From the NCBI GenBank assembly GCA_903884435.1, contig CAISEY010000021.1, positions 1 to 46,711 of the forward strand: a stretch of 46,711 bases of DNA. Direction: 5' to 3'. Below the pieces are notes generated by a model. That model searched no databases and had not been told where the DNA came from. It saw only the letters and a list, made by a program, of their open reading frames with translations. The position numbers and the translations under genes are program-made. Source of the DNA: an uncultured Hyphomicrobiales bacterium. GTDB taxonomy: Bacteria; Pseudomonadota; Alphaproteobacteria; Rhizobiales; Beijerinckiaceae. The number at the start of each line of letters is the position of its first letter. The first letter of the stretch is position 1. This document shows positions 13,360-45,299 of this stretch, in pieces.

Positions 13360-13367
13360 GTTGGGCC

Positions 13368-14525: not shown

Positions 14526-14624
14526 GGGAGACGCAAGACCCCGCGAAGGATATGATTTGTTAGCATGATCGCGGCGAAGCGGGAAAGTTTCCGCCGGCGG
14601 CGCGGACCCCGGGGCGCGGAACCC

Positions 14625-15170
14625 ATGACCGGCAAGCCACGATCGATCCTCGTTCTCGGCGGCGCCCGCTCCGGCAAGAGCGGCTGGGCGCGAGCTCTCG
14701 TCGAACGCGGCGGGCGCCAGCCCGTGCTGATCGCCACGGCGCGGGCGGGGGACGCCGAAATGGCGGAGCGCATCGCGCGCCATCGCGAAGAGCGGGGGCC
14801 CCGATGGACCGTCATCGAGGAACCCGACGACATCGCCGCGGCCATCGCCGCCGCGACGGGCCCCGGCTCCGTTGTCGTGGTCGATTGCCTGACGCTCTGG
14901 CTGAGCAACTTGATGCTGGCCGGGCGCGATGTCGAAGCGGCGACCGCCGGCCTCCCGCGCGTCATCGCGGGCGCGCGCGGCCCGCTGGTTCTCGTCAGCA
15001 ACGAGGTCGGCGAGGGGGTCGTGCCGCGCACCGAACTTGGCCGGAAATTTCGCGACGCGCAGGGCCGTCTCAACCAGGCGGCGGCGGCGGCCTGCGACGC
15101 TGTTGTCGTCATGCACGCGGGCCTGCCCTCGCGGATCAAGCCCGCGCCCGCTCCGGATCCGGAGATCTGA
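14625..15170 (+). CDS. cobU: Adenosylcobinamide kinase / adenosylcobinamide-phosphate guanylyltransferase
   Basis: The 181-residue protein has the CobU/CobP P-loop GGARSGKS (12-19), LIATARAGDAEMAERIARH, the guanylylation-region histidines, DCLTLWLSNLM (Walker B-like) and VSNEVGEGVVP. It phosphorylates adenosylcobinamide and transfers GMP to give AdoCbi-GDP in the nucleotide-loop part of B12 synthesis and salvage. ATG 14625 was chosen over ATG 14565 because the domain begins there and a purine-rich GGGGCGCGGA lies upstream. It ends two bases from the convergent btuF stop. The B12 uptake genes beside it support a salvage role. Rhizobial literature calls this cobP. Confidence 0.94.
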   Translation: MTGKPRSILVLGGARSGKSGWARALVERGGRQPVLIATARAGDAEMAERIARHREERGPRWTVIEEPDDIAAAIAAATGPGSVVVVDCLTLWLSNLMLAGRDVEAATAGLPRVIAGARGPLVLVSNEVGEGVVPRTELGRKFRDAQGRLNQAAAAACDAVVVMHAGLPSRIKPAPAPDPEI

Positions 15171-15172
15171 CC

Positions 15173-16042
15173 CTATTTCGCCTTGGCGCGGATTTCCGCG
15201 ATCATTTGCGCGATCAGCGCCGGCGTCGAGGGCCCGCCGCAGATCGTCAGCCGGTCCGGCAGCACCAGCCGGCGCTCGCCCGGCCAGAACGCGCGCAGCG
15301 CCGGATGCGCCAGAAACGCCTGGCCCTGGTCCATGGCGCGAAAATCCGCTTCCGACACGAGAAGGTAATCCGGCCGCGCGGCGACCAGCGCCTCGAGCCC
15401 GACGAAGCCGGAGCCGGAAACGCCCAGCGAGGGCGCGAGGTCGCGCAGACCGGCGCGCTCCGCGATTTCGCCGGTGAGGCCGGCGTGAAAGACATATCCG
15501 CGCCGGTGCAGCACGAGGCTCGTGGCCGTGACGCCCCGCTCCGCCCGCAGGGCGTCGATGGAAGCGAGGCCCGCCTCGATGGCGCCGATCAGCGCTTCGC
15601 CCCGTTCGGGATGGCCCAGCAGCGCCGCGAGGCTCCGGACCTGCGCCGCGCCTTCAGCGAAGGTCCGCCACGGATCGAGCGCCAGAAATTTCATGCCGCG
15701 CGCGGACAGCAGCGCGCGCGTGTAGCGGCTGTCCCACGGGCCCGTGAGCACGAGGTCGGCGTCGAGCCGCACGATGTCCTCGCCCGTGCCCCTGTTGGCC
15801 GGAAACCGCGCCGCCCGTTCCGCGAACCAGGAGAGGTCCGGGTCTCGCGCGAAGGGGCTGAGGGATGCGATCTGTGCGGGATCGGCGAGGTCCAGCAGGA
15901 GTTGATCCGCGCAGAGATTGGCGGAGACGACGCGGCGCGGCGCTTCGGCTGCGGGCGCGCCGCGCACGAGCGCGGCAATCAGGGCGAGGGCGACGAGGGC
16001 GCGAATGGGGGGCTCCGGGAAAGGCTGACGGATTTTTAACAC
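15173..16042 (-). CDS. btuF: Periplasmic cobalamin/siderophore-type ABC binding protein (BtuF-like)
   Basis: This 289-residue helical-backbone (cluster A, BtuF/FhuD) binding protein has a signal peptide (about residues 14-31, ending APAAEA). VVSANLCADQLLLDLADPAQIASLS is the usual opening of alphaproteobacterial BtuF-like proteins. VRLDADLVLTG and LEALVAARPDYLLVS are typical lobe motifs. It should carry corrinoid to BtuCD, encoded on the opposite strand downstream of the riboswitch. The start is GTG 16042, with only a weak ribosome site. Only about 43 bases separate it from the riboswitch, so the two divergent promoters must overlap or lie inside coding or aptamer DNA. The ligand is inferred from the neighbours. 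Confidence 0.85.
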   Translation of the reverse strand: MLKIRQPFPEPPIRALVALALIAALVRGAPAAEAPRRVVSANLCADQLLLDLADPAQIASLSPFARDPDLSWFAERAARFPANRGTGEDIVRLDADLVLTGPWDSRYTRALLSARGMKFLALDPWRTFAEGAAQVRSLAALLGHPERGEALIGAIEAGLASIDALRAERGVTATSLVLHRRGYVFHAGLTGEIAERAGLRDLAPSLGVSGSGFVGLEALVAARPDYLLVSEADFRAMDQGQAFLAHPALRAFWPGERRLVLPDRLTICGGPSTPALIAQMIAEIRAKAK

Positions 16043-16084
16043 GCCCGTTGCCAGACGGCGAGCCGCGCCCTACACATGGTCCCA

Positions 16085-16266
16085 ACGTTGGTGCCCCGCT
16101 TGAACGCGGGGTGAAACGGGAATGCGGTGCGGGAGAAATCCCAATGCCGCGGCTGCCCCCGCAACTGTAGGCGGAGAGTCTTTTCCACCCATGTCACTGA
16201 AGCGCCCGCGCTTCGGGAAGACCGGAAAAGACGACGACCCGCGAGCCAGGAGACCGGCCAATGTCA
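16085..16266 (+). promoter_or_regulatory. Cobalamin (B12) riboswitch upstream of btuB
   Basis: All classical blocks of the AdoCbl aptamer are visible in order. They are TTGGTGCCCC (P2 region), GGGAATGCGGTGCGGG, GGCTGCCCCCGCAACTGTA, the GTCACTG element, CTTCGGGAAG, GACGACGACCCGCGAGCC, and the B12 box AGCCAGGAGACCGGCC at 16244-16259. The aptamer ends about 40 bases before the btuB ATG. Bound adenosylcobalamin should repress btuBCD. No U-run terminator follows, so control is probably at translation initiation. GTCACTG replaces the more usual GCCACTG. Confidence 0.95.
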
Positions 16267-16279
16267 GTGTAACTCAAAA

Positions 16280-16301
16280 CCCGTCGGTGGGACGGGGGAG
16301 G
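16280..16301 (+). promoter_or_regulatory. Possible RBS-adjacent expression-platform hairpin
   Basis: CCCGTC (16280-16285) can pair with GACGGG (16291-16296) across a GGTGG loop. The btuB Shine-Dalgarno GGGGGAGG overlaps and extends from the 3' arm. Together with the missing U-run this suggests that the riboswitch acts by controlling ribosome access. The pairing is seen in sequence; its regulatory use is inferred. Confidence 0.45.
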
Positions 16302-16306
16302 TTATC

Positions 16307-18277
16307 ATGTCTGGCATTCGCATCGCCCGCGCGCTCGCGCCGGGTTTCCTCGCCATTGTTTCCCTTCATCCCCGCGGGGCGCTGGCGCAGCAGCCGCCGG
16401 AAGCCTTGCCGCCCGTCGTCGTCACCGCGACGCGTGGCCCGCTCGAAGTTTCGCGCGTTGGCGGCGCCGTCACGATTGTTGACGCGGCGGACATCGAGAA
16501 ATCCGGCGCGAGCAGCCTCGCCAGCGCGCTTCGCGCGGTTCCGGGCCTCGACGCGCACGAGGCCGGCGGCGTCGGCAGCCTGAGCAACGTGTCGCTGCGC
16601 GGCGCGACGCCAGGGCAAACTCTCGTTCTCGTCGATGGCAATCGCGTCGGCGACCCGACCGGCACCGACGGCGCTCTCGATCTCGGTTCTCTGGCCGTCA
16701 CGGATATCGAACGCGTCGAGGTGCTGCGCGGACCGCAATCGGCGCTCTACGGGTCCGACGCCATGGGCGGCGTCGTCAACATCATCACGCGCAAGGGCGA
16801 GCCGGGAATTCGCCGCTCCGCGAGCGTCGAGGCGGGAAGTTACGGAACCTTGCATTCTCGCGGCTCGGTGTCCGGAGCGACCGATAAAGCGACATACGCC
16901 TTTTCCGTGGACATGCTGCATGTCGATGGCTTCGCGCGCTACGTCGATCGCGCGAGGCAGCGCGCCGGGACATGGCCCGCGCCGCCGAAAAGCGATCCGG
17001 TGAACCGCGTCGGCGCCAGCGGGCGCGTCTCCTACCGGTTGAGCGATTCCGTCGAGGTCGAAACGGGTTTTACCGCCTCTTTCAATCGCCTGACCTTCGA
17101 CAACGGCTTCGCCTTCGTCCCCGCGAATGTCTACGACCGCTTCAACGTTCAAAAGCAATGGACCGGAAGCCTGTTCGCGCGCGCGACGGCGGACGCCTTC
17201 GATGGCGCGCTGAAAAACAAGGTCACGGTTTTCGCCAGCTCCATCGATCGCGCCGTGGCGGAAACGGAATCCTGTCCGGATTTTGTCTCCAGTTGCGTGT
17301 CGAACTATCGCGGTCGCCGGCAGGGCGCGGAATATCAGGGCGATCTGAAGCTGGGACGTTTCGGCCTGCTGGCCTTCGGCGCCCGTTCCGAGACGGAATC
17401 CGCGGCGACCTCTCAGGATTATCCCGCGGGCTACGCGGGCGCGCCGTTCCAGGGCGTGTCGGCGCGGCAGACGACGAATTCACTCTTCGCGCTGCATGGT
17501 TTCACTCCCGCGAACAATATCGACGTGTCCCTCGGCGGACGCGTCGACGCGGTCGAGGGCGGCAAGACTTTCGCGACGTGGCGCGCGACGATCGCCTACC
17601 GGCTTCCCGAGTCCGGCACGAAATTGCGCGCCAGCGCCGGAACCGGGGCGCGCGCGCCCTCCCTGTTTCAAAGGTTCAGTCAGTACGGCGCTCCCGGACT
17701 GGGGACGGAATACAGCACCGGTTTCGACGCCGGGATCGACCAGAGCCTCGCGGATGGACGCGTGACCCTTTCGGGTTCGGTCTTCCTCAACCGGTTCCGC
17801 GATCTCATCGACTTCGGCTTTCCATCCGCGGGTTGCCTGCCCGCGCAGGTCTTCGGCTGCTATTACAACGTCGGACGGGCCGTCACCCAGGGCGCCGAAA
17901 TCGCGGCCAGCGCGATTCTGGTTCCCGGGACGTGGCGCGCGCGCGCGAGCTACACTCATCTCGTCGCCAGGGACGAAATCGCCAGAACGCGGCTGTTGCA
18001 AAAGCCGCGCGACAAGGGAGTCGTCTCCGTCGTTTACACCGGCGTGGCCGGGCTTGAACTCGAGGGACGCGCGACGTTCGTCTCCAGCGTTCTCGACTAT
18101 GGTTCGGTGAAACTGGCGCGCTGGGCGCGGTTCGACGTTCTCGCCAGCCACAAAATCAACGAGACGCTGTCCGCTTTCGGGCGGCTCGAAAACATCGGCA
18201 ACGCCCGTTATGAAGAAGCCTTCAACTTCGCCGTCGCGGGCCGCGCCGTTTACGCGGGCCTGAAGGCGGCGTGGTGA
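16307..18277 (+). CDS. btuB: TonB-dependent vitamin B12 outer-membrane receptor
   Basis: The 656-residue protein has a signal peptide (cleavage near GALA-QQ, residue 27) and the TonB box PVVVTATR (36-43). A plug domain follows (DIEKSGASSLASALRAVPGL, VSLRGATPGQTLVLVDGNRV, ERVEVLRGPQSALYGSDAMGGVVNIITRKG), then a 22-strand-type barrel ending in aromatic Trp (YAGLKAAW). The plug is BtuB-like. The cobalamin riboswitch directly upstream and btuCD downstream make corrinoid the most likely ligand. It sits in the outer membrane and needs TonB-ExbB-ExbD. The start has a strong GGGGGAGG site 6 bases upstream. Confidence 0.94.
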   Translation: MSGIRIARALAPGFLAIVSLHPRGALAQQPPEALPPVVVTATRGPLEVSRVGGAVTIVDAADIEKSGASSLASALRAVPGLDAHEAGGVGSLSNVSLRGATPGQTLVLVDGNRVGDPTGTDGALDLGSLAVTDIERVEVLRGPQSALYGSDAMGGVVNIITRKGEPGIRRSASVEAGSYGTLHSRGSVSGATDKATYAFSVDMLHVDGFARYVDRARQRAGTWPAPPKSDPVNRVGASGRVSYRLSDSVEVETGFTASFNRLTFDNGFAFVPANVYDRFNVQKQWTGSLFARATADAFDGALKNKVTVFASSIDRAVAETESCPDFVSSCVSNYRGRRQGAEYQGDLKLGRFGLLAFGARSETESAATSQDYPAGYAGAPFQGVSARQTTNSLFALHGFTPANNIDVSLGGRVDAVEGGKTFATWRATIAYRLPESGTKLRASAGTGARAPSLFQRFSQYGAPGLGTEYSTGFDAGIDQSLADGRVTLSGSVFLNRFRDLIDFGFPSAGCLPAQVFGCYYNVGRAVTQGAEIAASAILVPGTWRARASYTHLVARDEIARTRLLQKPRDKGVVSVVYTGVAGLELEGRATFVSSVLDYGSVKLARWARFDVLASHKINETLSAFGRLENIGNARYEEAFNFAVAGRAVYAGLKAAW

Positions 18278-30715: not shown

Positions 30716-31656
30716 TATTTCGCGGGATCGACAAGCTCGTGTTCGTCGAGCCCGCGAATCGCCGCGCGCACGGTGGCGAGGCGGATTTCCTCGGCGCTCG
30801 CGCCAATGTGCGGCGTCGCCAGCATGTTGGGATGATTGAGCAGCGCGTCGTTGTCGCAGGGCTCGACCGCGAAAACGTCGAAGCCGGCGGCGGTCAGCGC
30901 GCCGGACTCGAGCCGTTCCAGCAGCGCCGCCTCGTCGACGATTCCGCCGCGGCAGGTGTTGACCAGCACGCAGTCCGGGCGCAATTTTCCCAGCGCGGCG
31001 CGATCGTAGAGTCCCCGGGTCGCCGCCGTTTTCGGCAAGTGCAGCGTCAGAACCTCCGAACGCTCCAGCAGCGTTTCGAAGGACACCGGGGTTACGTTGT
31101 TTCGCGCGTGGAACTCAGGGTAGTCGTTGATGTCGGTCGCGAGGATCGTGCAGTTGAACGGTTTCAGCAGACGCGCGACTTCCTTGCCGACGTTGCCGCA
31201 GCCATGGATGCCGACGACGCGGCCCGTGAGCAGCCGTCCGTTCTTGTAGCGCGGACGCTCGCCGCGGCGCATGGCGAGATTGAGCGCGGGAACCCAGCGC
31301 AGTGCCGCGATCATGAAGCACAGCGTCAGTTCCGCCACGGCCAGCCGGTTGACGCCCCACGTGTAGCCAAAGCGAATTCCGTGGCGTTGCATCGCGTGAA
31401 AATCGAAGGATTCTTAGCCCGCTCCGAATTTGCTGACGACTTTCAACCCGGGCAGGGCGGCGAGGACCTTTTCGGTCAGCGGTTCGAAGCCGATGATCGC
31501 CGAGTCGCAGCCGCGCAGAAAGGCGATCAGTTCATCCTCGTCCATGACATGCGTTCCCTGGTGGACGATGGCGTCGGGCAGGGCCTCGCTTATGACGCGC
31601 CGCAGGACGGGATGGTTCCAGATGATCGGCGTCGCGACGCCAATGCGCTTGTGCAT
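30703..31656 (-). pseudogene. D-2-hydroxyacid (phosphoglycerate-type) dehydrogenase with one in-frame TAA
   Basis: Starting at ATG 31656 (GGGAGG upstream), the protein reads as the catalytic domain of a D-isomer-specific 2-hydroxyacid dehydrogenase as far as LKVVSKFGAG. It then meets TAA at 31416-31414 (codon 81). The same frame continues ESFDFHAMQRHGIRFGY and GVNRLAVAELTL, the expected next segment, through the NAD motif GIHGCGNVGKEV. The catalytic Arg (NTCRGGIVDE), Glu (DVFAVEP) and His (ATPHIGAS) remain. The full span is 317 codons, normal for the family. Every active-site residue lies downstream of the stop, so the lesion looks recent, or may be a base error (for example TTA to TAA). A restart at ATG 31392 would give an NAD-binding domain lacking its N-terminal part. 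Confidence 0.82.
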
Positions 31657-33495: not shown

Positions 33496-34683
33496 ATGCA
33501 GACGGCAGCGGCCCTCGCCAGTTTCTCTTCGCCTCCGGCGCGCCGGACTCGCGTGGAGGAATTGCAGCGGCAGGTCACGAAAATGCTCCGGCGGCTTCGC
33601 GTGGCGGTGATCTACGCCGGCGACAAGGCGCGTCAGGGTTCCGTTCTCTATCCCACCTCCAATCCCCGCTCCTGGAAGAGCTACGAGCCGGTCGCCCGCG
33701 ACATCGCCGCGTCCCTGCGGCGGCTGGGTTGCCTCGAAGTCGAGGTGATTCCCGAAGACATGCACCTCGGCGAGCGGCTTCGCGAAGCGGGAAGCCATAT
33801 CGCCTGGCTCAACACCGGAGGCGTGCAGGGCTACAGTTCCGTGGCGCACGCGGCCGCGATGCTGGAAATGCTTGGCGTGCCCTATGTCGGTCACGATCCG
33901 CTGGTGGCGGCGATGCTCGACAACAAACATGTCTTCAAGCGCCAGATCATGTCCGCGGGCATGCCGACGGCTCCTTTCGCGGCCTAGCATCCGTCCTGTT
34001 ACGCGCGTCTCGACGAAGATCCTGTTTTCCGTCGGGCCTTCGCCTCGTGGACCGGCGCGTTCATCGTCAAGCCGGTGTCCGGTCGCGCCTCGCTGAACGT
34101 TCATTTCGTCGAGACCATGCAAGAACTCCAGGCGGTCGCGGCCGAGGTTTACGAGATCACCGGAAATCACGTGCTGATCGAGGGCTATCTCGGCGGGCGC
34201 GAATATTGCGTCGCGGTCTGCGGTCCGGTCGTCGCGCGCGGCGGACGGATCGACCGGCTCGATCATCCCTTCGTGTTCGGCGAGCTGGAGCGAGCCTTCG
34301 ACGCCGACGAGAAAATCTTCACGTCGATGGATTTGAAGCCCATCACCGACGGTCGCGCCCGTCCGCTCGATGGCGGGAAGGACGCGGACGTTCGCGAGCG
34401 CCTCGCGGTTCTGGCGCGCGATCTCTACGTCACGCTCGGTCTTGAAACTCTGGTTCGCCTCGACGTGCGCGCCGACGACGCGGGCGATCTGCACATCCTC
34501 GAGGCGAATCCCAAGCCGGACCTCAAGGCGCCCGCCGCCGGCCAGACGAGCCTCGTGGGCATCGGCCTCGCGGCCATGGGCATGAGCTACGACGATCTCG
34601 TTCTGTCGCTTCTCGCGGACAAGATCGACAATCTGTTCGCGCAACGCAGGGGGACGGCCGACAGGCTGCTGGCTCTCGTATGA
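33496..34683 (+). pseudogene. D-Ala-D-Ala-ligase-like ATP-grasp protein with one in-frame TAG
   Basis: From ATG 33496 (GGGAG upstream) the N-terminal part resembles Ddl: RLRVAVIYAGDK, NTGGVQGYSSVAHAAAMLEMLGVPYVGHDPLVAAMLDNKHVFKR (the substrate and lid region). It reaches MPTAPFAA and then TAG 33985-33987 (codon 164). The frame continues HPSCYARLDEDPVFRRAF and then GAFIVKPVSGRASLNVHF, VLIEGYLGGREYCVAV, LVRLDVRADDAGDLHILEANPKPDLKAP, i.e. the ATP-grasp nucleotide and Mg2+ sites, to TGA 34681-34683. The full span is 395 codons, longer than housekeeping Ddl (about 310), and no mur or fts genes lie near. So it is a Ddl-like amide ligase of unknown amino-acid substrates, not the cell-wall enzyme. 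TGG (Trp) or CAG (Gln) to TAG would explain the stop. It overlaps the next gene by ATGA. Confidence 0.8.
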
Positions 34684-37103
34684 ACACTGGAACGGCAATG
34701 CCGGAGACCACGAAAATGAACGCCCCGCGATCCAACCTGACGAGTCGCCTGATCGACGCGGTGACGAGCTTCATCGTCTCCGCCTTGTCGTTTTCGTTGC
34801 TGATTTACGTCGGTTACGGCGAGTCGCGCCGGACCTACGAACAGTTCCAGATCGAGAAGCTCGTCGGGCAGGCCGAACTGGTCCAGGACACGATGGAGGC
34901 CTTCCTCAGGAACGGCTATCCCATCCGTCAGTTCGCCGGCTTCGCGACCCTGGCGGAGCCGATCCTCAGTTCCGACAGTTCGGTCGCGCGCCTTGGCGTC
35001 CTCGACCTCGCGGGACAATCGGTTTTCCAGGCCGGCGAGGGCAGCCTGAAACTCCTGACGCACGTGCGGGATCGTTCCTCCGAGCGCTTTGAGATTCGCG
35101 ACGGCTCCGACCGGGTCCAGGTGGTTCTGCCCCTGAAAAACCGCTTCGAAAAGGTCGGCAACATCGCGGTCACGATGCTCTACGAGAAGCTCGACGCGCG
35201 GGTTCTGGAAGCCTTCCAGCCCGTGGCGATCACCGCTCTCGTCATCACCATCGGCTTTTCGCTCTTCACGCTGCTCTTTGGCCATCGGCTCAAGGCGAGC
35301 AACAGCCGCTGGCTTGGCGTCGCGTTCGGCGGCCTGTTTCTCGTCGTGGCCTCGGCGGTCATCGGCACCCTGATTTCGCTCTATTCCGAGGGAGCCCAGT
35401 CGAAGGCGCGCGCAGTCGCCTCGGCGCTTGGAGGCCGTCTCGACGACGCGGTGATCTTCAGGCTCAATCTCGAGGAGATGGAGGGGATCAACGAGATTCT
35501 CGCCGATTACAAGCGCCTCAATCCCGACGTGAGCGCCGCCGCGATCGTCGTCGAAAACAAGGTCATCTATCACACGGACCGCAAGCTCGCGGGCCACCCG
35601 ATGGCGCAGGACGGCGGCGTCTACAACATCAACGTGTCCCTGAGCGGCGACGCCGCGGTTGGCTCGTCCTATCTCGCGGTCCAGATTCCCAAGAGCGTCA
35701 TCTACTGGCAGGTCGGCCGGAGCGTGAAGAACTTCGCGGCCCTGTTCCTCGCGTCCGCCTTCTTCGCCGTGCTGTTCCTCGAACTTGGCCGCGCCTTGCA
35801 AAGGTTGCACGAGACGCGCCTCAATGGCGGCTCGGGGCAGCCCACCGGCGCGGAAATCAGCCTCGTCAAGCCGGCGTTCTTCCTCGCCGTGTTCCTCGAG
35901 AACCTGACCTACGCGTTCCTGCCGCAGTTCATGCGCGAGGTCGTGGCGTCCTACGGAATTTCGCAGGCCTACACGTCCGCGCCCTTCATGGCCTATTATC
36001 TGTGCTTCGCGCTCGCGCTTTTGCCGGCGGGGCGGATGGAAGGCCGCGTCGGTTCGCGCGTTTTGATCGTCGGCGGGTTGCTCCTGTCGGCCGCGACCTA
36101 CGTGCTGATGTACGCCACGCAGAGCTTCCCGGCGATCATGGTGGCCCGCGCGCTGGCGGGCGCCGGACAGGGCGCTCTCTTCATCGGCGTCCAGTCGTAC
36201 ACGCTGTCGAACAGCTCGTCCGACCGCCGCACCGAGGCCGCGAGCATCATCGTGTTCGGCTATCAGGCGGGCATGCTCTCGGGCATGGCGATCGGTTCGT
36301 TGCTGATCACGCACATTGGCATGACCGGCGTTTTCGCGCTTGGCGCGGTGGTCGGGCTCACCGCGGCCCTCTACACGCTCGTCGCCGTGCCGGCGCACAA
36401 TCCGCGCCAGGCCGTCGAGGCGGTCTCGCGCAGCCGCGGCGTTCTGCGCGACTTCCTCGACATGCTCGCGGATCGCCAGTTCATCCGCACCATGATGCTC
36501 ATCGGAGTTCCCGCGAAGGCGGTGATGACCGGCGTCGTTCTCTTCGCCCTGCCCCTGTTGCTCTCGAAACAGGGCTTCGTGCAGGAGGATCTCGGGCAAA
36601 TCATCATGCTTTACGCGGTCAGCGTCGTGCTCGTCAGCAACTTCGCGGCGAAATACGTCGATCGCGCCGGCGGCATCGAGGGCCTGCTGTTCTGGGGCGC
36701 GCTCTTCAGCGCCACGGGCATGTTGCTGATCGGCGGCAGCGTCTGGTCCCCGGCCCTCGACTGGCGCGTCTCGCCGACCGTCGCCACCGGGGTGCTGATC
36801 ATTGGCGTGTGCATCGTCGGCTTCGCCCATGGTCTCGTCAACGCCCCGGTGATCACGCATGTCGCCGACGCGCCCATCGCGTCGCGGCTGGGCGCCACAT
36901 CCGTGGCGGCGACCTACCGCTTCGTGGAACGCATCGGCCACGTCATGGGTCCGATGGTCATGAGCCTGCTTTTCTCCACGTTCGGCCAGAACTGGAGCAT
37001 GCTCCGCTGGGTGGCGGGCGGCGTTTGCCTCTGCGGCTTCATCTTCATCGCCACGTCGCGGACGATCGACGTGTCCGGCTACAATGTCGAGGTGTCGAAA
37101 TGA
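34680..37103 (+). CDS. MFS transporter fused to N-terminal tandem extracytoplasmic sensor-like domains
   Basis: This 807-residue protein is about twice the size of an ordinary MFS carrier. Residues 24-46 form a membrane helix, 47-178 an extracytoplasmic domain, 179-201 and 211-235 two helices, 236-350 a second extracytoplasmic domain (AAAIVVENKVIYHTDRKLAG, Cache-like), and 351-371 a helix. Residues 393-800 are a 12-helix MFS domain (FLPQFMREVVASYGIS, ALAGAGQGALFIGVQSY, ARALAG). No HAMP or enzymatic output domain is present. The architecture suggests a transporter gated by, or reporting on, an external ligand. ATG 34680 overlaps the ligase stop, and its own stop overlaps the next start (ATGA), so translation is coupled on both sides. 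I do not recognise a characterised homologue; export of a ligase product or import of a peptide-like compound are guesses. Confidence 0.8.
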   Translation: MNTGTAMPETTKMNAPRSNLTSRLIDAVTSFIVSALSFSLLIYVGYGESRRTYEQFQIEKLVGQAELVQDTMEAFLRNGYPIRQFAGFATLAEPILSSDSSVARLGVLDLAGQSVFQAGEGSLKLLTHVRDRSSERFEIRDGSDRVQVVLPLKNRFEKVGNIAVTMLYEKLDARVLEAFQPVAITALVITIGFSLFTLLFGHRLKASNSRWLGVAFGGLFLVVASAVIGTLISLYSEGAQSKARAVASALGGRLDDAVIFRLNLEEMEGINEILADYKRLNPDVSAAAIVVENKVIYHTDRKLAGHPMAQDGGVYNINVSLSGDAAVGSSYLAVQIPKSVIYWQVGRSVKNFAALFLASAFFAVLFLELGRALQRLHETRLNGGSGQPTGAEISLVKPAFFLAVFLENLTYAFLPQFMREVVASYGISQAYTSAPFMAYYLCFALALLPAGRMEGRVGSRVLIVGGLLLSAATYVLMYATQSFPAIMVARALAGAGQGALFIGVQSYTLSNSSSDRRTEAASIIVFGYQAGMLSGMAIGSLLITHIGMTGVFALGAVVGLTAALYTLVAVPAHNPRQAVEAVSRSRGVLRDFLDMLADRQFIRTMMLIGVPAKAVMTGVVLFALPLLLSKQGFVQEDLGQIIMLYAVSVVLVSNFAAKYVDRAGGIEGLLFWGALFSATGMLLIGGSVWSPALDWRVSPTVATGVLIIGVCIVGFAHGLVNAPVITHVADAPIASRLGATSVAATYRFVERIGHVMGPMVMSLLFSTFGQNWSMLRWVAGGVCLCGFIFIATSRTIDVSGYNVEVSK

Positions 37104-38317
37104 GCATGCTGTTTACCCGCCGGTCCGCCGCCGGACTGATTGGCGGCGCCTTGTTCGCGCCGCCGCCGGCCTCGGCTCAATCGAGGGCGAGCTTCGCCGA
37201 CTGGTTCAAGTACGGCAAGGACGTGGAGCGCTTCTGGAGCGTCTCGGAGGTCGAGGGAGACGCGAATCGCGTCCTGATCCGCCCGCTTGGCATGGAGCTG
37301 AGTTCGGGCAAGCGGATGATGGTGCTCTATCCTCGCGCCTCCTCGGCCTACGACTCCGCGATCACCAAGATGCTCGACGTGTTCGACGACAAGAACATGG
37401 CCGTCTGGATCGACGTGGTGAATTATGCCGGCTCCGCCGATCGCGCCCGCGAGGCCATCAGGGAGGCGGAACGCAATGGCGTCGATCTGCTCGTCGCCAT
37501 GGGTTCGGAATCGACCGCGTTGCTCTGGCAGGACTACAAGGGCGGCAGGATTCCTGTCGTCACGGTGTGCGCGAAGGATCCGGTGACTCTCGCGCAAATG
37601 CAGTCCTACGACGTTGGCTCCGGCACCAATTTCGCCTTCACGTCGCTGAACATGCCGATCGACGCCCAGATGGGCTACGTCCATCAACTGCGGCCCAATC
37701 TCAAGCATCTCGCGGTTCTCGTCGACGAAACGAACGTCAGCGCCGTCGAAACCCAGGCCAAGCCCGTGGCCGAATATGGCTCGGCGCGCGGGATCAGGGT
37801 TCTGCAACTGGGCGTCAAGGATCCCAGGAACGCCAGGGAAGAATTGCGCGAACACGTTCGCCGCGCCGTCGCGTTCATGCAGCGCAACGACAAGGAACTG
37901 CAAAACAGTGTTTTCTGGATTACCGGAAGCACGTCCGTCTTCAACGAAATCAAGACCATCAACGCGGAAGCCGGCAACGCGCCCGTGCTGAGCGTGGTCC
38001 CGGAAGTCGTGCGAGAGGGAGACGACAGCGCGACCCTGTCGATCGGGATCAGTTTCGACAGCAACGCGCATCTCGCGGCGATTTACGCCGCCGACATCAT
38101 CGACCGGAAGGTCGAGGCGGGCAATCTCAAGGTCGGCCTCGTTTCGCCGCCCGACATCGCCATCAACTTCCGCCGCGCCCGCGCGATCGGCTTCAGGGTG
38201 CCCTTCAACTTCTTCGAGAGCGCGACGAACATCTACGACTACGAAGGCAAGCCGGCGCGCATCAACGGCGTCATGCTGGCCGAACGCAGGAATGGCGGCG
38301 CGGCCGCGGTTCGATAG
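37100..38317 (+). CDS. Orphan ABC_sub_bind-type periplasmic binding protein
   Basis: This 405-residue protein begins MSMLFTRRSAAGLIGGALF, a twin-arginine-like signal peptide ending near ASAQS. The rest has the two-lobed type I fold of the ABC_sub_bind (TrpX/YtfQ-like) family: RMMVLYPRASSAYDSAITKMLDVF, GVDLLVAMGSESTALLWQDY, IPVVTVCAKDPVTLAQ, HLAVLVDETNVSAVETQAK, LSIGISFDSNAHLAAIYAADII. No ABC permease or ATPase is in this operon. Its partners are instead the sensor-MFS protein upstream and the GGDEF-EAL protein downstream, so it may present a ligand to the MFS sensor domains (inference). Its start overlaps the MFS stop by four bases. Confidence 0.85.
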   Translation: MSMLFTRRSAAGLIGGALFAPPPASAQSRASFADWFKYGKDVERFWSVSEVEGDANRVLIRPLGMELSSGKRMMVLYPRASSAYDSAITKMLDVFDDKNMAVWIDVVNYAGSADRAREAIREAERNGVDLLVAMGSESTALLWQDYKGGRIPVVTVCAKDPVTLAQMQSYDVGSGTNFAFTSLNMPIDAQMGYVHQLRPNLKHLAVLVDETNVSAVETQAKPVAEYGSARGIRVLQLGVKDPRNAREELREHVRRAVAFMQRNDKELQNSVFWITGSTSVFNEIKTINAEAGNAPVLSVVPEVVREGDDSATLSIGISFDSNAHLAAIYAADIIDRKVEAGNLKVGLVSPPDIAINFRRARAIGFRVPFNFFESATNIYDYEGKPARINGVMLAERRNGGAAAVR

Positions 38318-38344
38318 CGGAACGCAGGGGACGCGGGGGCCAGC

Positions 38345-40996
38345 ATGTCGCGGAGCACGTTTTCGGCTGTCGGGGATGACGGGTCGAACCCGCTCGCGTC
38401 CCCGGGGCGGCCGCTGGTCGAGCATGTCCTCGGCTTGCAGCGCGAGTTGCTCGCGGCCAGCGTCGATGGAGGAACCGTCGCGCGACTGCTGGAGCGCGTG
38501 GCGCGCTTCGTCGAAAAGTCTTTTCCGGGCGTTCTGTGCCGCGTTATCGCGCGCGCTGGCGGCGCGGTCGACAGGCGCGACCCCGAGGGCTGGAGCGAGT
38601 CCGCCGGAGGCGAACCGCTCGATGTCCCCGGGGATCCTCTCGAAGTTTGCGCCACTGGCGGTCAAAGCGTCTCGATTCCGGATTTCCGCTCCGGCGGCGC
38701 CTGGCCCCGCCACGCGGCGCTGGCGCTGCTGCGCCGGCTGAGATCGTGCCATGTCGAGCCATTGCCGGGACGCGACGGCGAATCCGGCGCCATCGCGGTT
38801 TATTCGGGTTCTCCCGCCGGTCCCGGCGAAAGGCACGTCGAATTCGTCTCCGCCGTCGCGGGTCACGTCGCGCTCGCGCTCTCGGCTTGCCGGAAAAGCG
38901 AAAAGGACGCCGCCGACGCGTCGCGCTTTCACTCGTTGTCCCGTTCGATTCCGGGCGTCGTCTATCAACGTCTCGTCACTCCCGGCGGCGACATCCGCTA
39001 CACCTACGTCAGCGAGAGCGCGTCCGAACTGTTCGGCGTCGCCGCTGAACGCATCGTCGGCGATCCCGAGGCCCTGTTCCAGCACTATGACCAGGACTAT
39101 CGCGACAGCTTCCGCGGGAAGCTGATCGAGGCTTCCCGCGCCATGGCTCCCTGGGACGTCGAGGCCAGGATCGTGCGGCCAGACGGCGAAATACGCCACA
39201 CGCACGCGGTGGCGCGGCCCGCCAGGCTCGCCGACGGATCGGTTCTCTGGACTGGCGTCATCCTCAACGCCGAGCGCATCAAGCAGGCCGAACGCGCCGC
39301 CGCGGAAGCGGAGGCGAGGACGCGCGAGGCCATCGTCGACAGCATGTCCCAGGGCATGGTCCTGTTCGATCGCGACGACCGTCTCGTCATCGCCAACCGC
39401 TATTTTCGCGAACTGTACCCAACGCTTCGCGAGGAAGTCGCGCCAGGAACGCTCTATCGCGATTTCATCCTCGCGGAACAGCGGGCGCTCAAGTTTGGCG
39501 GACGCGAGACCGATCACGAGGAACTCGCCAGACGCCTCGGTCAGCGCGACGAGGGTGGCTACGTCGCCGAGCGCCGCGTTGGCGACGAGCGCTGGATCAT
39601 GGTGTCGGAAAACCGCACCGCCGATGGCGGCACGGTCATCCTGCACACGGACGTGTCGGAACTGAAGACGCGCGAGCGGCGTATTCACCACCTCGCCTAT
39701 CACGACGTGCTGACGGGATTGCCGAACCGAGCGTCCTTTCTGCAAAGGCTGAACGACGAGTTGACGCGCTGCCGCAAGGCGCGCGAGAGCCTCGCTGTGC
39801 TGTGCATCGATCTCGACGGGTTCAAGCACGTCAACGACACGCTGGGTCATCCGTTCGGCGACGAACTGCTGGTCGAGATCGCCAGACGCATCAAGGACAA
39901 CATCCGCGAGGTCGATGTTTCCGCGCGTCTTGGCGGCGACGAATTCGCCATCGTCGTCAGCGACAACGTGAGCGTCGAGACGGTGACGGGCATCGCCTGG
40001 CGTCTGCTGCACGCGCTCGCCGAACCCGTGATGATCCGCGACCAGCAGGTCGTGACGACGGCGAGCATCGGCGTCGCCTTCGCGCTGCCCGGCGAGGAAA
40101 CGGATCCCGATTTCCTGATGAAATGCGCGGATCTCGCGCTGTACCGGTCGAAGTCCGACGGGCGCGACACCTTCCGGTTCTTCGAGACGGAAATGGACGC
40201 CATCGCGCAGAGGCGTCGCCGGCTCGAGAACGACCTGCGCCTCGCGCTGGAGCGCGATGAACTGGAACTTTATTTCCAGCCGCTCGTGGACGTCTACACG
40301 GAGGAGGTCATGGGCGCCGAGGCGCTCGTGCGCTGGCGGCATCCCGAACGCGGACTCATTTCGCCGCTCGATTTCATCGCGCTCGCCGAGGAGACCGGCA
40401 TCATCGTCAGGATTGGCGCGTGGGTTCTGCGCCGCGCCTGCATCGAGGCCTCGCAATGGCCGAGTTCGGTGCGCGTCGCCGTCAACCTGTCGCCGGCGCA
40501 GTTCCGCGACCGCGATCTCGTGCCGGGCATCCAGCGCGTCCTGGAGGAAGTGGGCCTGCCTCCCAACCGCCTCGAACTGGAGATCACGGAATCCCTGTTG
40601 CTGCGCGACACCGCCGCGAACCTGCAAACGCTCAACGAAATCAAGGCGCTCGGCGTGCGCATCTCGATGGACGACTTTGGCACGGGCTATTCCTCGCTGG
40701 GCAATCTCCGCAGCTTTCCCTTCGACAAGATCAAGATCGACCGCTCCTTCGTCAACGACCTCGAGACCTCGGCGGATTCCGCCGCGATCGTCCGCGCCGT
40801 GCTCAGCCTTGGCCGCGGCATGGGCATGACGACGACGGCGGAGGGCGTCGAAAACCTCGACCAGCTCGCCTATCTGCGGGCCGAGGGCTGCTCGGAAGTG
40901 CAGGGCTTCTATTTCAGCGAGCCGCGGCCCGCCGCGGAAATCGCGAAAATGCTTCGCGAGGGCTTCCCGAAAACGCCGGCCAACGGCCGAAAATAG
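38345..40996 (+). CDS. GAF-PAS-PAS-GGDEF-EAL cyclic-di-GMP protein
   Basis: The 883-residue cytosolic protein has a GAF-like domain (about 45-180), PAS (195-310), PAS (325-440), GGDEF (450-610) and EAL (630-870). The cyclase site G530-GDEF534 and the inhibitory RxxD (R521-EVD524) are intact. EAL residues are complete: E659-A-L in GAEALVRWRHP, NLSPAQF, E in ITESLLL, DDFGTGYSS, KIDRSFV and TTAEGVEN. It could therefore both make and degrade c-di-GMP. No membrane helix is seen, so input must come from a cytosolic ligand or partner. It lies 27 bases after the binding-protein gene, with a GGGGG-rich ribosome site, and ends the operon; a terminator follows. Confidence 0.93.
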   Translation: MSRSTFSAVGDDGSNPLASPGRPLVEHVLGLQRELLAASVDGGTVARLLERVARFVEKSFPGVLCRVIARAGGAVDRRDPEGWSESAGGEPLDVPGDPLEVCATGGQSVSIPDFRSGGAWPRHAALALLRRLRSCHVEPLPGRDGESGAIAVYSGSPAGPGERHVEFVSAVAGHVALALSACRKSEKDAADASRFHSLSRSIPGVVYQRLVTPGGDIRYTYVSESASELFGVAAERIVGDPEALFQHYDQDYRDSFRGKLIEASRAMAPWDVEARIVRPDGEIRHTHAVARPARLADGSVLWTGVILNAERIKQAERAAAEAEARTREAIVDSMSQGMVLFDRDDRLVIANRYFRELYPTLREEVAPGTLYRDFILAEQRALKFGGRETDHEELARRLGQRDEGGYVAERRVGDERWIMVSENRTADGGTVILHTDVSELKTRERRIHHLAYHDVLTGLPNRASFLQRLNDELTRCRKARESLAVLCIDLDGFKHVNDTLGHPFGDELLVEIARRIKDNIREVDVSARLGGDEFAIVVSDNVSVETVTGIAWRLLHALAEPVMIRDQQVVTTASIGVAFALPGEETDPDFLMKCADLALYRSKSDGRDTFRFFETEMDAIAQRRRRLENDLRLALERDELELYFQPLVDVYTEEVMGAEALVRWRHPERGLISPLDFIALAEETGIIVRIGAWVLRRACIEASQWPSSVRVAVNLSPAQFRDRDLVPGIQRVLEEVGLPPNRLELEITESLLLRDTAANLQTLNEIKALGVRISMDDFGTGYSSLGNLRSFPFDKIKIDRSFVNDLETSADSAAIVRAVLSLGRGMGMTTTAEGVENLDQLAYLRAEGCSEVQGFYFSEPRPAAEIAKMLREGFPKTPANGRK

Positions 40997-41144: not shown

Positions 41145-42464
41145 ATGCGCCGTCTCGCCGCCGCCCTTTGTATCGGCCTCGCCACGCTCGCCGCCGCCCG
41201 CGCGCAGGCGCCCGCCGGAAAGGTCACGGTCGTCACTTCTTTCGCGAAGGACGTGACCGACCCCTACAAGAAGGCCTTCGAGAAGGCTTTCCCCGGCGTC
41301 AGCCTCGAGGTGCAGAACCGCAACACCAACTCCGCGGTCAAGTTCATCGAGGAAACGAAGAGCGCCAACGCGACGGATTTGATGTGGGCCTCCGCCCCCG
41401 ACGCGTTCGAGGTGCTCAAGGGCAAGAACCTCCTGATGAAGTACCAGGTCAAGGCCGCGGGCATTCCCGACAGGGTCGGCACCTATCCCGTCAACGATCC
41501 CTCCGGAACCTATTTCGGCTTCGCCGCCTCCGGCTATGGCATCATGTGGAACGAGCGTTACGCGAAGGCCAACAAGCTGCCCGACCCGAAGGAGTGGGAG
41601 GACCTCGCGAAGCCCGTCTATTTCGATCACGTCGCCATCGCCGCGCCCTCGCGCTCGGGCACGACGCATCTCACCATCGAGACGATTCTCCAGGGCGAGG
41701 GCTGGGACAGGGGCTGGCGCTCCATCAAGGAAATCGCCGGCAATTTCCGCCAGGTGACGGACCGCTCCTTCGACGTGCCCGAACAGGTGAACTCCGGTCA
41801 GGTGGGCGTCGGCGTCGTCATCGATTTTTTCGCCTTCTCGGCACAGGCCGCCGGCTTCCCGGTGAAATTCGTTTATCCCTCGGTGACGACGGTCGTGCCG
41901 GCCAACATCGGCATTGTCGCCAATCCGCCGAACCGCGCCGTGGCCGAGGCCTTCGTCGAATTCCTCCTCTCGCCCGCGGGGCAGGAGGTGCTGCTCGATC
42001 CGACGATTCGGCGTCTGCCCGTCAATCCCGCCATCTACGCGAAGGCGCCGGCGGACTATCCGAACCCCTTCAAGGACGCGCGCTTCACGAAGATGATTTC
42101 CTTCAGTTCGGAAACCTCGGAAAAACGCACGGACGCGGTGGACACCCTGTTCGACCAGTTGATCACCTTTCAGCTCGCCGGGCTGAAGGACGCGACGAAG
42201 GCCATTCACGCCGCCGCCGCCGCGCTGGAGAAGAAGGACAACGCCCGGGCGCGCGCCCTGCTCGCCGAGGCCCGCGACGCGATCGCCGCCATGCCGGTCA
42301 CCGACGCGCAGGCGTCGAGCCCCGAAATCCGCGGTGCCTTCACCGGCGCGAAGGAAAAGACCGCGCGCCAGGCCGAGGTCGAGCAGAAATGGGCGAGCTT
42401 CGCGAAGGAACAATACGCGACGGCGAAATCGAAGGCCGAGGAAGCGCTGAAGCTGGCGCGATGA
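41145..42464 (+). CDS. Periplasmic binding protein of an AfuA/PgtC/FbpA-type importer
   Basis: The 439-residue protein has a signal peptide (MRRLAAALCIGLATLAAARA) and a type II binding-protein fold: VTVVTSFAKDVTDPYKKAFEK, DLMWASAPDAFEVLK, GYGIMWNERYAK. Where ferric-binding FbpA/FutA carry a tandem Tyr pair, this protein has IDFFAFSAQAAG (F228-F229) followed by VKFVYPSVTTVVPANIGIV. That pattern fits PgtC/AfuA-like proteins for phosphorylated compounds better than Fe3+ binders. Residues about 325-439 are an Ala/Lys/Glu-rich, probably helical C-terminal extension absent from the usual 330-350-residue members. GGAGG lies 6 bases upstream of ATG 41145. The ligand is unproven. Confidence 0.85.
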   Translation: MRRLAAALCIGLATLAAARAQAPAGKVTVVTSFAKDVTDPYKKAFEKAFPGVSLEVQNRNTNSAVKFIEETKSANATDLMWASAPDAFEVLKGKNLLMKYQVKAAGIPDRVGTYPVNDPSGTYFGFAASGYGIMWNERYAKANKLPDPKEWEDLAKPVYFDHVAIAAPSRSGTTHLTIETILQGEGWDRGWRSIKEIAGNFRQVTDRSFDVPEQVNSGQVGVGVVIDFFAFSAQAAGFPVKFVYPSVTTVVPANIGIVANPPNRAVAEAFVEFLLSPAGQEVLLDPTIRRLPVNPAIYAKAPADYPNPFKDARFTKMISFSSETSEKRTDAVDTLFDQLITFQLAGLKDATKAIHAAAAALEKKDNARARALLAEARDAIAAMPVTDAQASSPEIRGAFTGAKEKTARQAEVEQKWASFAKEQYATAKSKAEEALKLAR

Positions 42465-42489
42465 AGCCGCCCCGCGTCCCGGACCGGCG

Positions 42490-44205
42490 ATGAGCGCGCC
42501 CGGCGCGTCCGTCGCGGCGCGCCGGCGTTCCGCCTGGCGCGCCGGCGAACTGGCGCTTGGCCTTTCAATCGCGGCGTTCCTCCTCGTCTTCGTCGCCTGG
42601 CCCGCCGCGACGGTCGCTTACGTGGCCTTCACGGAGAAGGGAACAGGCGCCTTCACGCTGGTGAACTTCCTCGATTTCGCGCGGACGGATCTCTTCACGC
42701 GGTCTCTGTGGAACTCGATTTACGTGGGCGCCATGACCGTGGTCTGGGCCTCCGTGATCGCGCTGCCGCTGGCCATTCTGACGACGCGCTATTCCTTTCG
42801 CGGCGCCCTGCTCGTGCAGACGCTGGGCTTCGTGCCGCTGATCATGCCGCCCTTCGTCGGCGCCGTCGCGATGCAGATGCTGTTCGGGCGCAACGGCGCG
42901 GTCAACTTGCTGCTCGACGACTGGTTCGACGTGAAAATCCCCTTCATGGAAGGGCTCAACGGCGTCATCTTCGTCGAGGCCCTGCACTATTTTCCATTCA
43001 TTCTGATCAATCTCTCCGCCAGTCTGCGCAACATCGACCGTTCCATGGAGGAAGCCGCGCAAAACCTCGGCGCCTCGGGCTTCCGGCTGTTGCGGCGGAT
43101 CGTTCTGCCCCTGTCGATGCCCGGCTTCGTCGCCGGCGCCTCGCTCGTTTTCGTCAAGGTTTTCGACGATCTCGCGACGCCCTTGCTGCTCAACGTCAAG
43201 GACATGCTGGCGCCGCAGGCCTATTTGCGCGTCACGTCCATCGGCATCGCCGATCCCATGGGATACGTGATCGCCGTCGTGCTCGTCGCGCTCTCGGTCG
43301 CGTGCATGGCGCTCGCCGCGCTCGCGACGCGCGGAACGGATTTCGCGACCGCGCAACGTGGCGGCGGCGGCCTCGCCCGCCGCCGCCTGAGCCCCGCGGA
43401 AAACGCCATGGCCAGCCTCGTCGTCGGACTGATCCTCCTGCTGGTTCTCGCGCCGCACATTGGACTGCTCCTTCTGTCCTTCGCGACGGTCTGGTCCTTC
43501 AGTCCGCTGCCCGACGCCTTCACGCTCGCGCATTACGCGCGCGTGCTCTCCGAAAGCTCGCTCTACGTCAGGAACACCATTCTCTACGCGTCCCTGGGCG
43601 GGCTGATCGATGTCGTCGTCGGCACGGCCATCGCCTGGCTGGTCCTGCGCACGCAATTGCCGTTCCGGCGCTGGCTCGATCGCGGCGCGACGGCGGCGCT
43701 GGCGATCCCCGGCGTCGTCCTCGGCATCGGCTATCTGCGCGCCTTCTACGACGTGCGCCTGCCCGGCGGCGTTCCGCTCGCGACGCTCTGGATCATGATG
43801 GTGCTCGCCGTCGCCGTGCGGCGCCTTCCCTATGCGCTGCGCGCGAGTTACGCCGCGCTCCAGCAAATCTCGACCTCGCTCGAGGAGGCCGCCGAAAATC
43901 TCGGCGCGACGCGCGCCCGCGCCGTGCGTCGCGTCGTGCTGCCGCTGATGACCGGCGGCATTCTCGCGGGCTTCGTCACGTCCTTCGCCACGGCCGCGGT
44001 CGAATTGTCGGCGACCTTGCTGCTGGTTCAGTCGAATTCCGACGCGCCGCTCGCCTATGGCGTTTATGTCTTCATGCAATCGCCCGCCGGGCGCGGCCCC
44101 GGCGCGGCGCTCGGCGTCATCGCCGTCGTCATCGTGACAATTTGCACGCTGGTCGCCCAACTGGCGATCGAGCGAAGCCAGAACGCCAGGGGAGCCTTGC
44201 ATTGA
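42490..44205 (+). CDS. Two-domain ABC permease (ThiP/FbpB/AfuB type)
   Basis: This 571-residue protein holds two fused permease halves of about six helices each. Each half carries an EAA loop: MEEAAQNLGASGFRLLRRIVLPLSMPG in the first and LEEAAENLGATRARAVRRVVLPLMTGG in the second, the contacts for the ATPase. It forms the inner-membrane channel of the importer. ATG 42490 lies 25 bases after the binding-protein stop, and its TGA overlaps the TTG start of the ATPase gene. The fused layout is standard for iron, thiamine and sugar-phosphate systems of this superfamily. Confidence 0.93.
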   Translation: MSAPGASVAARRRSAWRAGELALGLSIAAFLLVFVAWPAATVAYVAFTEKGTGAFTLVNFLDFARTDLFTRSLWNSIYVGAMTVVWASVIALPLAILTTRYSFRGALLVQTLGFVPLIMPPFVGAVAMQMLFGRNGAVNLLLDDWFDVKIPFMEGLNGVIFVEALHYFPFILINLSASLRNIDRSMEEAAQNLGASGFRLLRRIVLPLSMPGFVAGASLVFVKVFDDLATPLLLNVKDMLAPQAYLRVTSIGIADPMGYVIAVVLVALSVACMALAALATRGTDFATAQRGGGGLARRRLSPAENAMASLVVGLILLLVLAPHIGLLLLSFATVWSFSPLPDAFTLAHYARVLSESSLYVRNTILYASLGGLIDVVVGTAIAWLVLRTQLPFRRWLDRGATAALAIPGVVLGIGYLRAFYDVRLPGGVPLATLWIMMVLAVAVRRLPYALRASYAALQQISTSLEEAAENLGATRARAVRRVVLPLMTGGILAGFVTSFATAAVELSATLLLVQSNSDAPLAYGVYVFMQSPAGRGPGAALGVIAVVIVTICTLVAQLAIERSQNARGALH

Positions 44206-45299
44206 GCGTCGCGAGCACGGCGCGGGGGAGGGGCCCCGCCGCGGTCGATGTCGAGATTTCCGGCGTCAACCTGTCTTATGGCGCCAACCACGTTCTGCGG
44301 AACATCGACCTGCGGGTCGAGCCGGGCGAGTTTTTCGCGTTTCTCGGTCCGTCCGGCTGCGGCAAGACAACGCTCCTGCGTCTGATCGCGGGCTTCAACG
44401 TCGCCGATTCCGGCGAGGTGAAGATCGGCGGGCGCGACGTGGGCGACCTGCCCGCGTGGAAACGCGACGTGGGCATGGTCTTCCAGTCCTACGCCCTGTG
44501 GCCGCACATGAGCGTGCGCGGGAACGTCGCCTTTGGCCTCGAGGAGCGCCGCGTTCCGCGCGCCGAAATCGCGCGGCGCGTCGCGGCGGCGCTCGATCTC
44601 GTGGGGCTCGCGTCGCTCGCCGATCGCAAGCCGTCGCAACTCTCCGGCGGCCAGCAGCAGCGCGTGGCTCTGGCGCGCACCATCGTGATCGAGCCGAAGG
44701 TTCTGCTGCTCGACGAGCCCCTGTCCAATCTCGACGCGAAAATGCGCGTTCAGGTGCGGCATGAATTGCGCGAGCTTCAGCAAAGGCTCGGCATCACCAC
44801 GATTTTCGTGACGCATGATCAGGAAGAGGCCAACGCCATTTGCGACCGGATCGCGGTGATGAACGCGGGAATCGTCCAGCAGGTCGGCGCGCCGATGGAA
44901 CTCTACGCCAACCCCGCCAATCTCTTCGTCGCGAATTTTCTGGGCACGGCGAACATCGTCGATGGAAAATTCGTCGAGACGAACGGCGTCCGCGCCTTCG
45001 ACGCGGGCGGCGGGCTGATGCTGCCGGTTCCCGAAGACAGGGCGATTCCTCCGGACGCGAAATTCGTCTTCCGCCCGCAGGACGCGCGACCGGGCCCCGT
45101 GGCCGCTGGCGAAATCTCGCTGCCCGCGCGCGTGCTGGGACACGAATTCCTCGGCGCGTCGGTGCGTTACCGCTTGGCGACGGGCGCCGCCGAGATCTTC
45201 GTCGACGCGCCCTTTCACGGTGGCGCGGGGCTTCTCGCGAACGGCGCCGCGACAACGCTCGCGCTGCCGCCGGGCGCGGGCCTCTGGCTGGCGCGATAG
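44202..45299 (+). CDS. ABC importer ATP-binding protein with C-terminal TOBE-like domain
   Basis: This 365-residue ATPase has Walker A GPSGCGKTTLL, Q-loop VFQSYALWPHMSVRGNVAFGL, signature LSGGQQQRVALARTI, Walker B VLLLDEPLSNLDAK, and the switch His in FVTHDQEEAN. A C-terminal regulatory domain (about 240-365, FRPQDARPG) is of the OB/TOBE type. The start is TTG 44202, overlapping the permease stop (TTGA), with GGGGAG upstream; no in-frame ATG fits better. It completes a three-gene importer with the two upstream genes. Confidence 0.93.
   Translation: MSVASTARGRGPAAVDVEISGVNLSYGANHVLRNIDLRVEPGEFFAFLGPSGCGKTTLLRLIAGFNVADSGEVKIGGRDVGDLPAWKRDVGMVFQSYALWPHMSVRGNVAFGLEERRVPRAEIARRVAAALDLVGLASLADRKPSQLSGGQQQRVALARTIVIEPKVLLLDEPLSNLDAKMRVQVRHELRELQQRLGITTIFVTHDQEEANAICDRIAVMNAGIVQQVGAPMELYANPANLFVANFLGTANIVDGKFVETNGVRAFDAGGGLMLPVPEDRAIPPDAKFVFRPQDARPGPVAAGEISLPARVLGHEFLGASVRYRLATGAAEIFVDAPFHGGAGLLANGAATTLALPPGAGLWLAR

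Follow-up and report, generated by a model that had tools for sequence, protein, structure and literature searches.

Gene order and protein families at the locus

The locus described here occupies positions 33496-40996 of a 46,711-nt stretch of DNA (contig CAISEY010000021.1, assembly GCA_903884435.1; the whole stretch is called the window below) from an uncultured Hyphomicrobiales bacterium. Four genes follow one another on the + strand and encode an ATP-grasp ligase, a carrier of the major facilitator superfamily (MFS) with a sensor-like front half (sensor-MFS), an exported solute-binding protein and a signal transducer. The ligase and MFS genes overlap in an ATGA at 34680-34683, the MFS and binding-protein genes in another at 37100-37103, and a 27-base gap separates the binding-protein gene from the transducer start at 38345; a promoter scan upstream of 33496 found none. 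A preliminary description, made from the sequence alone, had presented these as four joined genes. The overlaps, the gap and the frames of the MFS, the binding protein and the transducer were found as described, but the ligase is not one open frame: when the open reading frames (ORFs) are read, an in-frame TAG at 33985-33987 (+) divides the frame 33496-34683 into 163 and 231 codons. The N-terminal part (33496-33984, +) is Ddl-like and 75-77% identical to intact relatives at two other loci, L040 and L041 (L numbers denote loci and G numbers genomes), and the C-terminal part (33988-34683, +) is the catalytic ATP-grasp portion and matches the Pfam family Dala_Dala_lig_C (3.8e-13).

A ligase model built from five sequences (predicted local distance difference test (pLDDT) 67.6, middling confidence) matched Ddl structures in a Foldseek search with E values down to 1e-15, and among the matches listed 50 of 50 were Ddl. 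The ATP-grasp residues of intact relatives, namely the Lys of VKP, R-x-D and E-x-N, align to Escherichia coli DdlB, and a 19-row ligase alignment from which the window was excluded shows no variation at the VKP Lys, at Arg and Asp in R-x-D or at Glu and Asn in E-x-NPKPDL. The family therefore shares the Ddl/ATP-grasp fold and the ATP-Mg residues with Ddl (TIGR01205, PF07478), in agreement with the Ddl-like amide ligase proposed earlier, but it differs in a conserved SMDxxPI stretch, which falls in a region that does not align to DdlB. Identity with the cell-wall Ddl was rejected, as the ligase scores 67.5 bits, far under the curated Ddl cut-off of 245.65, and a canonical ddl (270.9 bits) lies elsewhere in the window genome. 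For these two reasons the ligase would most naturally be taken to make an amide other than D-Ala-D-Ala. A ligase search of a phage collection returned only ordinary ddl-like matches (24-28% identity).

The MFS gene (34680-37103, +, 807 aa) carries an MFS_1 domain at residues 400-746 (35877-36917; 4.1e-34), which at 118.5 bits passes the cut-off of 33.4. The protein weakly resembles AAHS symporters and also the Bcr/CflA exporters and EmrB efflux families, matches that point both ways, to import and to export. In its N-terminal half (34680-35834, +), hydropathy places four transmembrane segments near residues 24-42, 175-204, 214-232 and 352-370, and an AlphaFold2 model from eight sequences (pLDDT 73, predicted template-modelling score 0.66) displays two units, each consisting of a long helix and a PAS-like sheet. 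The Foldseek list for this model is rich in Cache sensors (KinD, PctA, PctC and Mlp24) at weak scores, and its best-ranked match, a modelled kinase complex, superposes poorly. No Pfam Cache family matched the sensor half, and a PDB sequence search with the sensor profile gave nothing meaningful (best E 0.27). Of the earlier claim of an MFS carrier with two fused extracytoplasmic sensor-like domains, the MFS domain is firm, and the two Cache-like domains that would precede it in the periplasm are supported, if weakly, by a model of middling confidence.

An open frame for the binding protein runs from 36002 to 38317, and the start at 37100 (gene 37100-38317, +) was chosen from the ATGA overlap and a signal-peptide-like N terminus. 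The protein is the only match of its own family profile in the window genome. It is distantly TrpX-like, and its profile retrieves the solved structures 6hni and 3lkv as relatives, but it differs from the TrpX/ABC_sub_bind group in that its match to TrpX (NF041285) reaches only 35.5 bits against a cut-off of 390, PF04392 (ABC_sub_bind) gives no match, and ABC partners do not recur. When ORFs of at least 120 aa from the 33 loci introduced below were clustered, no ABC permease or ATPase family recurred among the 25 largest clusters, which accords with the earlier view of a binding protein lacking an ABC channel. Descent from an ABC importer was considered and is not supported, because no channel genes recur and the ABC set downstream carries its own binding protein. 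That set, of the phosphonate uptake type, lies directly downstream (window 41145-45299); its binding protein is phnS2-like by NCBIfam, its permease and ATPase were assigned by reading the sequence only, and it is followed by a second GGDEF gene that is cut by the contig end.

The transducer gene (38345-40996, +, 883 aa) encodes the domain order GAF-PAS-PAS-GGDEF-EAL. Its GAF-PAS input region spans 38345-39304 (the GAF, at 27.8 bits, is just under the cut-off of 28.6), the GGDEF domain spans 39695-40168 with intact GGDEF and RxxD motifs, and the EAL domain spans 40229-40924 with intact EAL, DDFG and EGVE motifs. By these motifs the protein is predicted to be a GGDEF-EAL enzyme of cyclic di-GMP (c-di-GMP).

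A conserved core with an exchanged output

A first search of 61 genomes yielded seven full-length sensor-MFS genes, one of them from the window. With a profile of the N-terminal half of the MFS, matches at E 1e-10 were then obtained in 11 of 397 genomes from the order and in 11 of 385 from the class, and matches at E 1e-6 in 5 of 398 from the phylum; these draws overlap and include the window genome. The profile of the ligase family, at E 1e-30, found exactly the same 11 genomes of the 397, a co-occurrence that favours a joint system. In the phylum draw it matched 5 of 354 genomes, four of which are module carriers; in the fifth, G889, a 750-aa frame matched weakly (1.4e-35), and its 19.5-kb stretch contains no further gene of the module. 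Three of the 11 positive genomes had contributed rows to the MFS profile (A3) and seven to the ligase profile (A4), and A4 was built from ligases adjoining sensor-MFS genes; the comparison therefore chiefly asks whether the ligase occurs without the MFS, and such a ligase was not seen in the 397-genome sample.

Gene order was compared in 33 loci, three of them on Vibrio plasmids; metagenome assemblies are the source of many sequences in this work. Among the 30 others, L042 and L046 are cut off before the ligase and 25 bear it. In all 25 of these alphaproteobacterial loci, which represent many different families within the class, the ligase, MFS and binding-protein genes are consecutive on one strand, indicating that the neighbourhood is conserved in relatives. 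The locus counts are not independent events, because several loci are close kin (L043/L045, L069/L070 and L075/L076). In quick trees of the ligase, the MFS and the binding protein, made without a species-tree control, path lengths of the three families correlate with r of 0.73-0.96 over 19 to 26 shared rows, and none of 2,000 permutations was as high. These trees omitted the fragmentary rows of the window, L033, L044 and L073, and L042, L046 and L086 are not in them.

Among the 25 largest neighbour clusters, those present in at least four loci comprise the core genes, their antisense or out-of-frame ORFs and one TauD oxygenase family, which is the only substrate hint from flanking genes. The TauD family occurs in 4 of the 33 loci. 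Three cases, near or within the locus in distant genomes, were confirmed by Pfam (L036, 14336-15163; L084, 12988-13956; L085, 8315-9229), and the fourth, L077, was found by BLAST clustering only.

In 19 of the 25 ligase-bearing loci the trio has as its neighbour a transducer with this GAF-PAS input, 14 on the same strand and 5 on the opposite one; so does the trio's counterpart in L046, which is not among the 25. Ten of the 19 end in GGDEF-EAL (that of L075 being cut within EAL), eight in a histidine kinase, and one is cut off (L040); on the MFS tree, with 18 rows labelled, at least three switches between GGDEF-EAL and histidine kinase are needed. Among the six loci in which a same-input transducer was not confirmed, L041 and L073 end at a contig edge and L080 has a weak match at the edge. 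Four whole genomes, each a contributor of rows to the GAF-PAS alignment, were also searched with it, so that this search asks only about further copies. Each of the four had one full-length match, inside the cluster (398-436 bits), and the sole other match at E 1e-5 scored 83 bits (G060).

The GAF-PAS input thus belongs to the system, and the output is exchanged. c-di-GMP as the defining output was rejected, given the histidine kinases in 8 of 19 loci, and because c-di-GMP is one of several outputs, the core is the ligase, the MFS and the binding protein, usually with the GAF-PAS input. The module first described, with a ligase, a sensor-MFS, a binding protein and a signalling enzyme, is therefore recurrent, but its dual c-di-GMP enzyme, intact in its motifs here, is not a fixed part; the picture of a c-di-GMP pathway has to be corrected to one in which the output is exchangeable and the core of ligase, carrier and binding protein is much less so.

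Vibrio plasmids and distant versions

A tblastn search with the ligase returned six plasmid records, all from Vibrio (about 43% identity), and the MFS sensor and the binding protein match the same six. Three of them were opened (V. tubiashii p251, V. gigantis p1 and V. crassostreae p2), and in all three tssH and an FHA gene enclose a group made up of the ligase, the MFS, the binding protein and another binding protein of smaller size. The trio is thus embedded in type VI secretion clusters (L087, L088 and L089, at about 11970-17260); the second small binding protein of L087 has no Pfam match. A V. europaeus plasmid type VI system is assigned to subtype i5 in a paper whose main text does not use the terms MFS, ATP-grasp or ligase (PMC12824646).

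The carrier part of the module MFS recurs in more distant MFS proteins from Aureimonas AU20, Azospirillum and Nitratidesulfovibrio. Their front-end sequence is barely recognisable, and hydropathy indicates a four-helix front end in three of the four checked, L102 being ambiguous. On Aureimonas pAU20a (L099, 5501-12746), a sensor-type MFS gene overlaps a GCS2-type ligase gene, and a binding protein and a dCache-SpoIIE phosphatase face this pair. On Azospirillum plasmids (L100, 2874-8489; L102, 2868-10441), genes for alanine racemase, a binding protein, a sensor-type MFS and a GNAT acetyltransferase stand in a row, which in L102 ends in a dCache nucleotide cyclase; the A. brasilense Sp7 version reads alr-SBP-MFS-GNAT-cyclase. 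The neighbours of these distant pairs are again amino-acid enzymes and signalling outputs, as in L085, closer to the module family, where SpoIIE and TauD genes are nearby, and the distant pairs and the module may belong to one system.

Two of these plasmids hold further proteins of interest. L100 encodes on the - strand (8511-11882) a single protein that combines a periplasmic binding domain, a mechanosensitive-channel beta-domain and a cyclic-nucleotide-binding domain. The Nitratidesulfovibrio plasmid (L101, 6836-12792) carries a binding protein and a 987-aa MFS with an enlarged front end, together with a 578-aa protein that has no Pfam match and lies near a type III secretion chaperone gene.

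Carriers are not always part of the arrangement. The sensor profile identified sensor-only proteins without a carrier that adjoin a binding protein in L085 and L086, and in G820 it gave a weak match (1.4e-8) to the beginning of an sCache-bearing hybrid kinase; the latter match overlaps the sCache domain only partly, and the kinase adjoins an ABC_sub_bind protein. Because carrier-free sensors adjoin binding proteins, the carrier may be less fundamental to the arrangement than the pair of binding protein and sensor.

Proposed function and its alternatives

From the gene set, its order and co-occurrence, the ATP-grasp fold and residues, the recurrent input domain and the swapping of outputs, we infer a scheme of ligand chemistry, transport direction, docking and signal path. 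The Ddl-fold enzyme would join two amino-acid-like substrates into an amide, and the MFS would move this product or a close relative across the inner membrane. In the periplasm, the binding protein would capture the ligand and dock on the pair of Cache-like domains that the MFS carries, a step for which the pairing of the genes is the evidence. In the cytosol, the transducer would respond through its GAF-PAS input to the occupied complex or to the admitted ligand, changing c-di-GMP here and driving a histidine kinase in other genomes. The whole may therefore be a made-moved-sensed module and, because its ligand is most likely self-made, an autocrine or quorum-type signal system; this is the reading we prefer, at somewhat less than an even chance. 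The amino-acid enzymes near the distant pairs (GCS2 ligase; alanine racemase and GNAT; TauD) favour it. We found no description of such a module in the open-licence literature (titles and abstract openings), consistent with the earlier statement that no described pathway of this composition was known, although an earlier mention is possible.

Several observations weigh against the autocrine reading. The ligase is interrupted in the window genome itself, and L084, L085 and L086 (genomes G808 and G641) have a sensor and a binding protein but no ligase in the fetched stretch. The stretch of L033 holds no same-input transducer, and the GAF-PAS transducer is replaced by a dCache nucleotide cyclase in L082, which retains the ligase, and by a dCache histidine kinase in L083. 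The sequence matches of the MFS point to export as well as to import, and the tree correlation may reflect vertical descent alone. Among the distant versions, the enzymes near the Azospirillum MFS/binding-protein pairs are not ligases, and the binding proteins scarcely match the module profile; both of the two scanned match PF04392, unlike the module binding protein.

A wider interpretation, which we put forward more tentatively, is that a sensor-fused carrier and an orphan binding protein act as receiver and gate for an amino-acid-derived molecule from a neighbouring enzyme, and that they form an unnamed class in which the enzyme end and the output end are both interchangeable. The enzymes would then include the Ddl-like ligase, the GCS2 ligase, racemase plus acetyltransferase and perhaps the TauD oxygenase, and the outputs c-di-GMP, histidine kinase, nucleotide cyclase, SpoIIE phosphatase and type VI secretion. 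Such a system would span Alphaproteobacteria, Vibrio and, in outline, Nitratidesulfovibrio.

Nutrient sensing is the main rival to autocrine signalling. Under a logic like that of UhpABC, an environmental amino acid or peptide would be recognised and imported, the ligase would conjugate it, and the transducer would adjust lifestyle. The distant likeness of the binding protein to TrpX, the amino-acid chemoreceptor domains (PctA, PctC and Mlp24) in the Foldseek list of the sensor model, all at weak scores, and the weak resemblance of the MFS to AAHS symporters as well as to Bcr/CflA exporters are what such a transceptor would lead one to expect, but no catabolic gene recurs among the neighbour clusters, and an ATP-consuming ligase is an odd constant partner of import. 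On balance we consider it unlikely, though a serious contender. A role in antagonism, in which the ligase makes an antibiotic-like amide, the MFS exports it and protects the producer, and the sensors watch competitors, would suit the placing within type VI secretion clusters on all three opened Vibrio plasmids and the weak resemblance of the MFS to Bcr/CflA and EmrB efflux families, and ATP-grasp and MFS pairs do occur in dipeptide antibiotic clusters. Yet no further biosynthetic gene was recurrent among the alphaproteobacterial loci, and binding proteins typically serve uptake or sensing, so this role seems improbable. Accidental synteny without joint function, for which the close kinship of several loci could be cited, is already contradicted by the conservation data, namely the same trio in 25 of 25 loci over many families and on Vibrio plasmids and the same 11 of 397 genomes, and its probability is negligible.

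It is a separate question whether the window genome's copy is in decay and has ceased to function as a unit. The window ligase is the only one with a stop among the 11 ligases from the 397 genomes of the order, and a second gene about 2 kb away, for a D-2-hydroxyacid dehydrogenase (31767-30703, - strand), is split by an in-frame TAA at 31414-31416. The ratio of non-synonymous to synonymous change (pN/pS) of the window ligase against L040/L041 is 0.22-0.32, above the 0.16-0.18 between L040 and L041, but close to that of the neighbouring MFS and binding-protein genes against the same relatives (0.20-0.28), and the MFS, binding-protein and transducer frames are open. An assembly error is also possible because the genome consists of 461 contigs with 6.88% contamination. 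Since intact relatives exist and the pN/pS is near that of the neighbours, these data suggest that the stop either marks a recent loss or is an assembly error. Relaxed constraint is hinted at mildly at most, and decay of the copy is conceivable but somewhat doubtful. Stop-codon recoding was rejected: the other interrupted gene uses TAA, 10 of the 11 ligases of the order lack a stop, and none of 18 GGDEF matches in the window genome is interrupted. Outside the 397-genome set, L044, from a Devosia metagenome-assembled genome, has stops in the ligase (484-486) and in the binding protein (4508-4510), and is either a decaying copy or assembly noise.

If the autocrine reading is true, adjoining genes of the module encode the maker of a signal, its receptor and the output; the module would be a portable cassette for sensing, and because these genes adjoin, expression of a single enzyme could reveal the chemical signal. 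An MFS carrier would then, jointly with a binding protein, provide the scaffold of a sensor, and the module might supply an input to the type VI secretion clusters found on some Vibrio plasmids. Should the TAG be real, the present strain may only listen, with the receiver kept and the synthase lost.

Parts of this arrangement resemble known systems. In systems of the UhpC/UhpBA type, an MFS sensor protein is paired with a kinase, a cytosolic signalling enzyme; the module MFS is likewise paired with a cytosolic signalling enzyme, but it has two extra sensor-like domains, a binding protein and a ligase, and its output varies. LuxP-LuxQ consists of a periplasmic binding protein and a two-domain periplasmic sensor that feeds a signalling output. 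The module, judged by its gene pairing, would likewise combine a binding protein with a putative two-domain periplasmic sensor, but this sensor is fused to an MFS carrier and not to a kinase. BacD and BacE of bacilysin combine an ATP-grasp amide ligase with an MFS protein in a dipeptide producer, and the module amide ligase similarly adjoins an MFS gene; unlike bacilysin, the module has no other recurring biosynthetic genes and adds a binding protein and a transducer.

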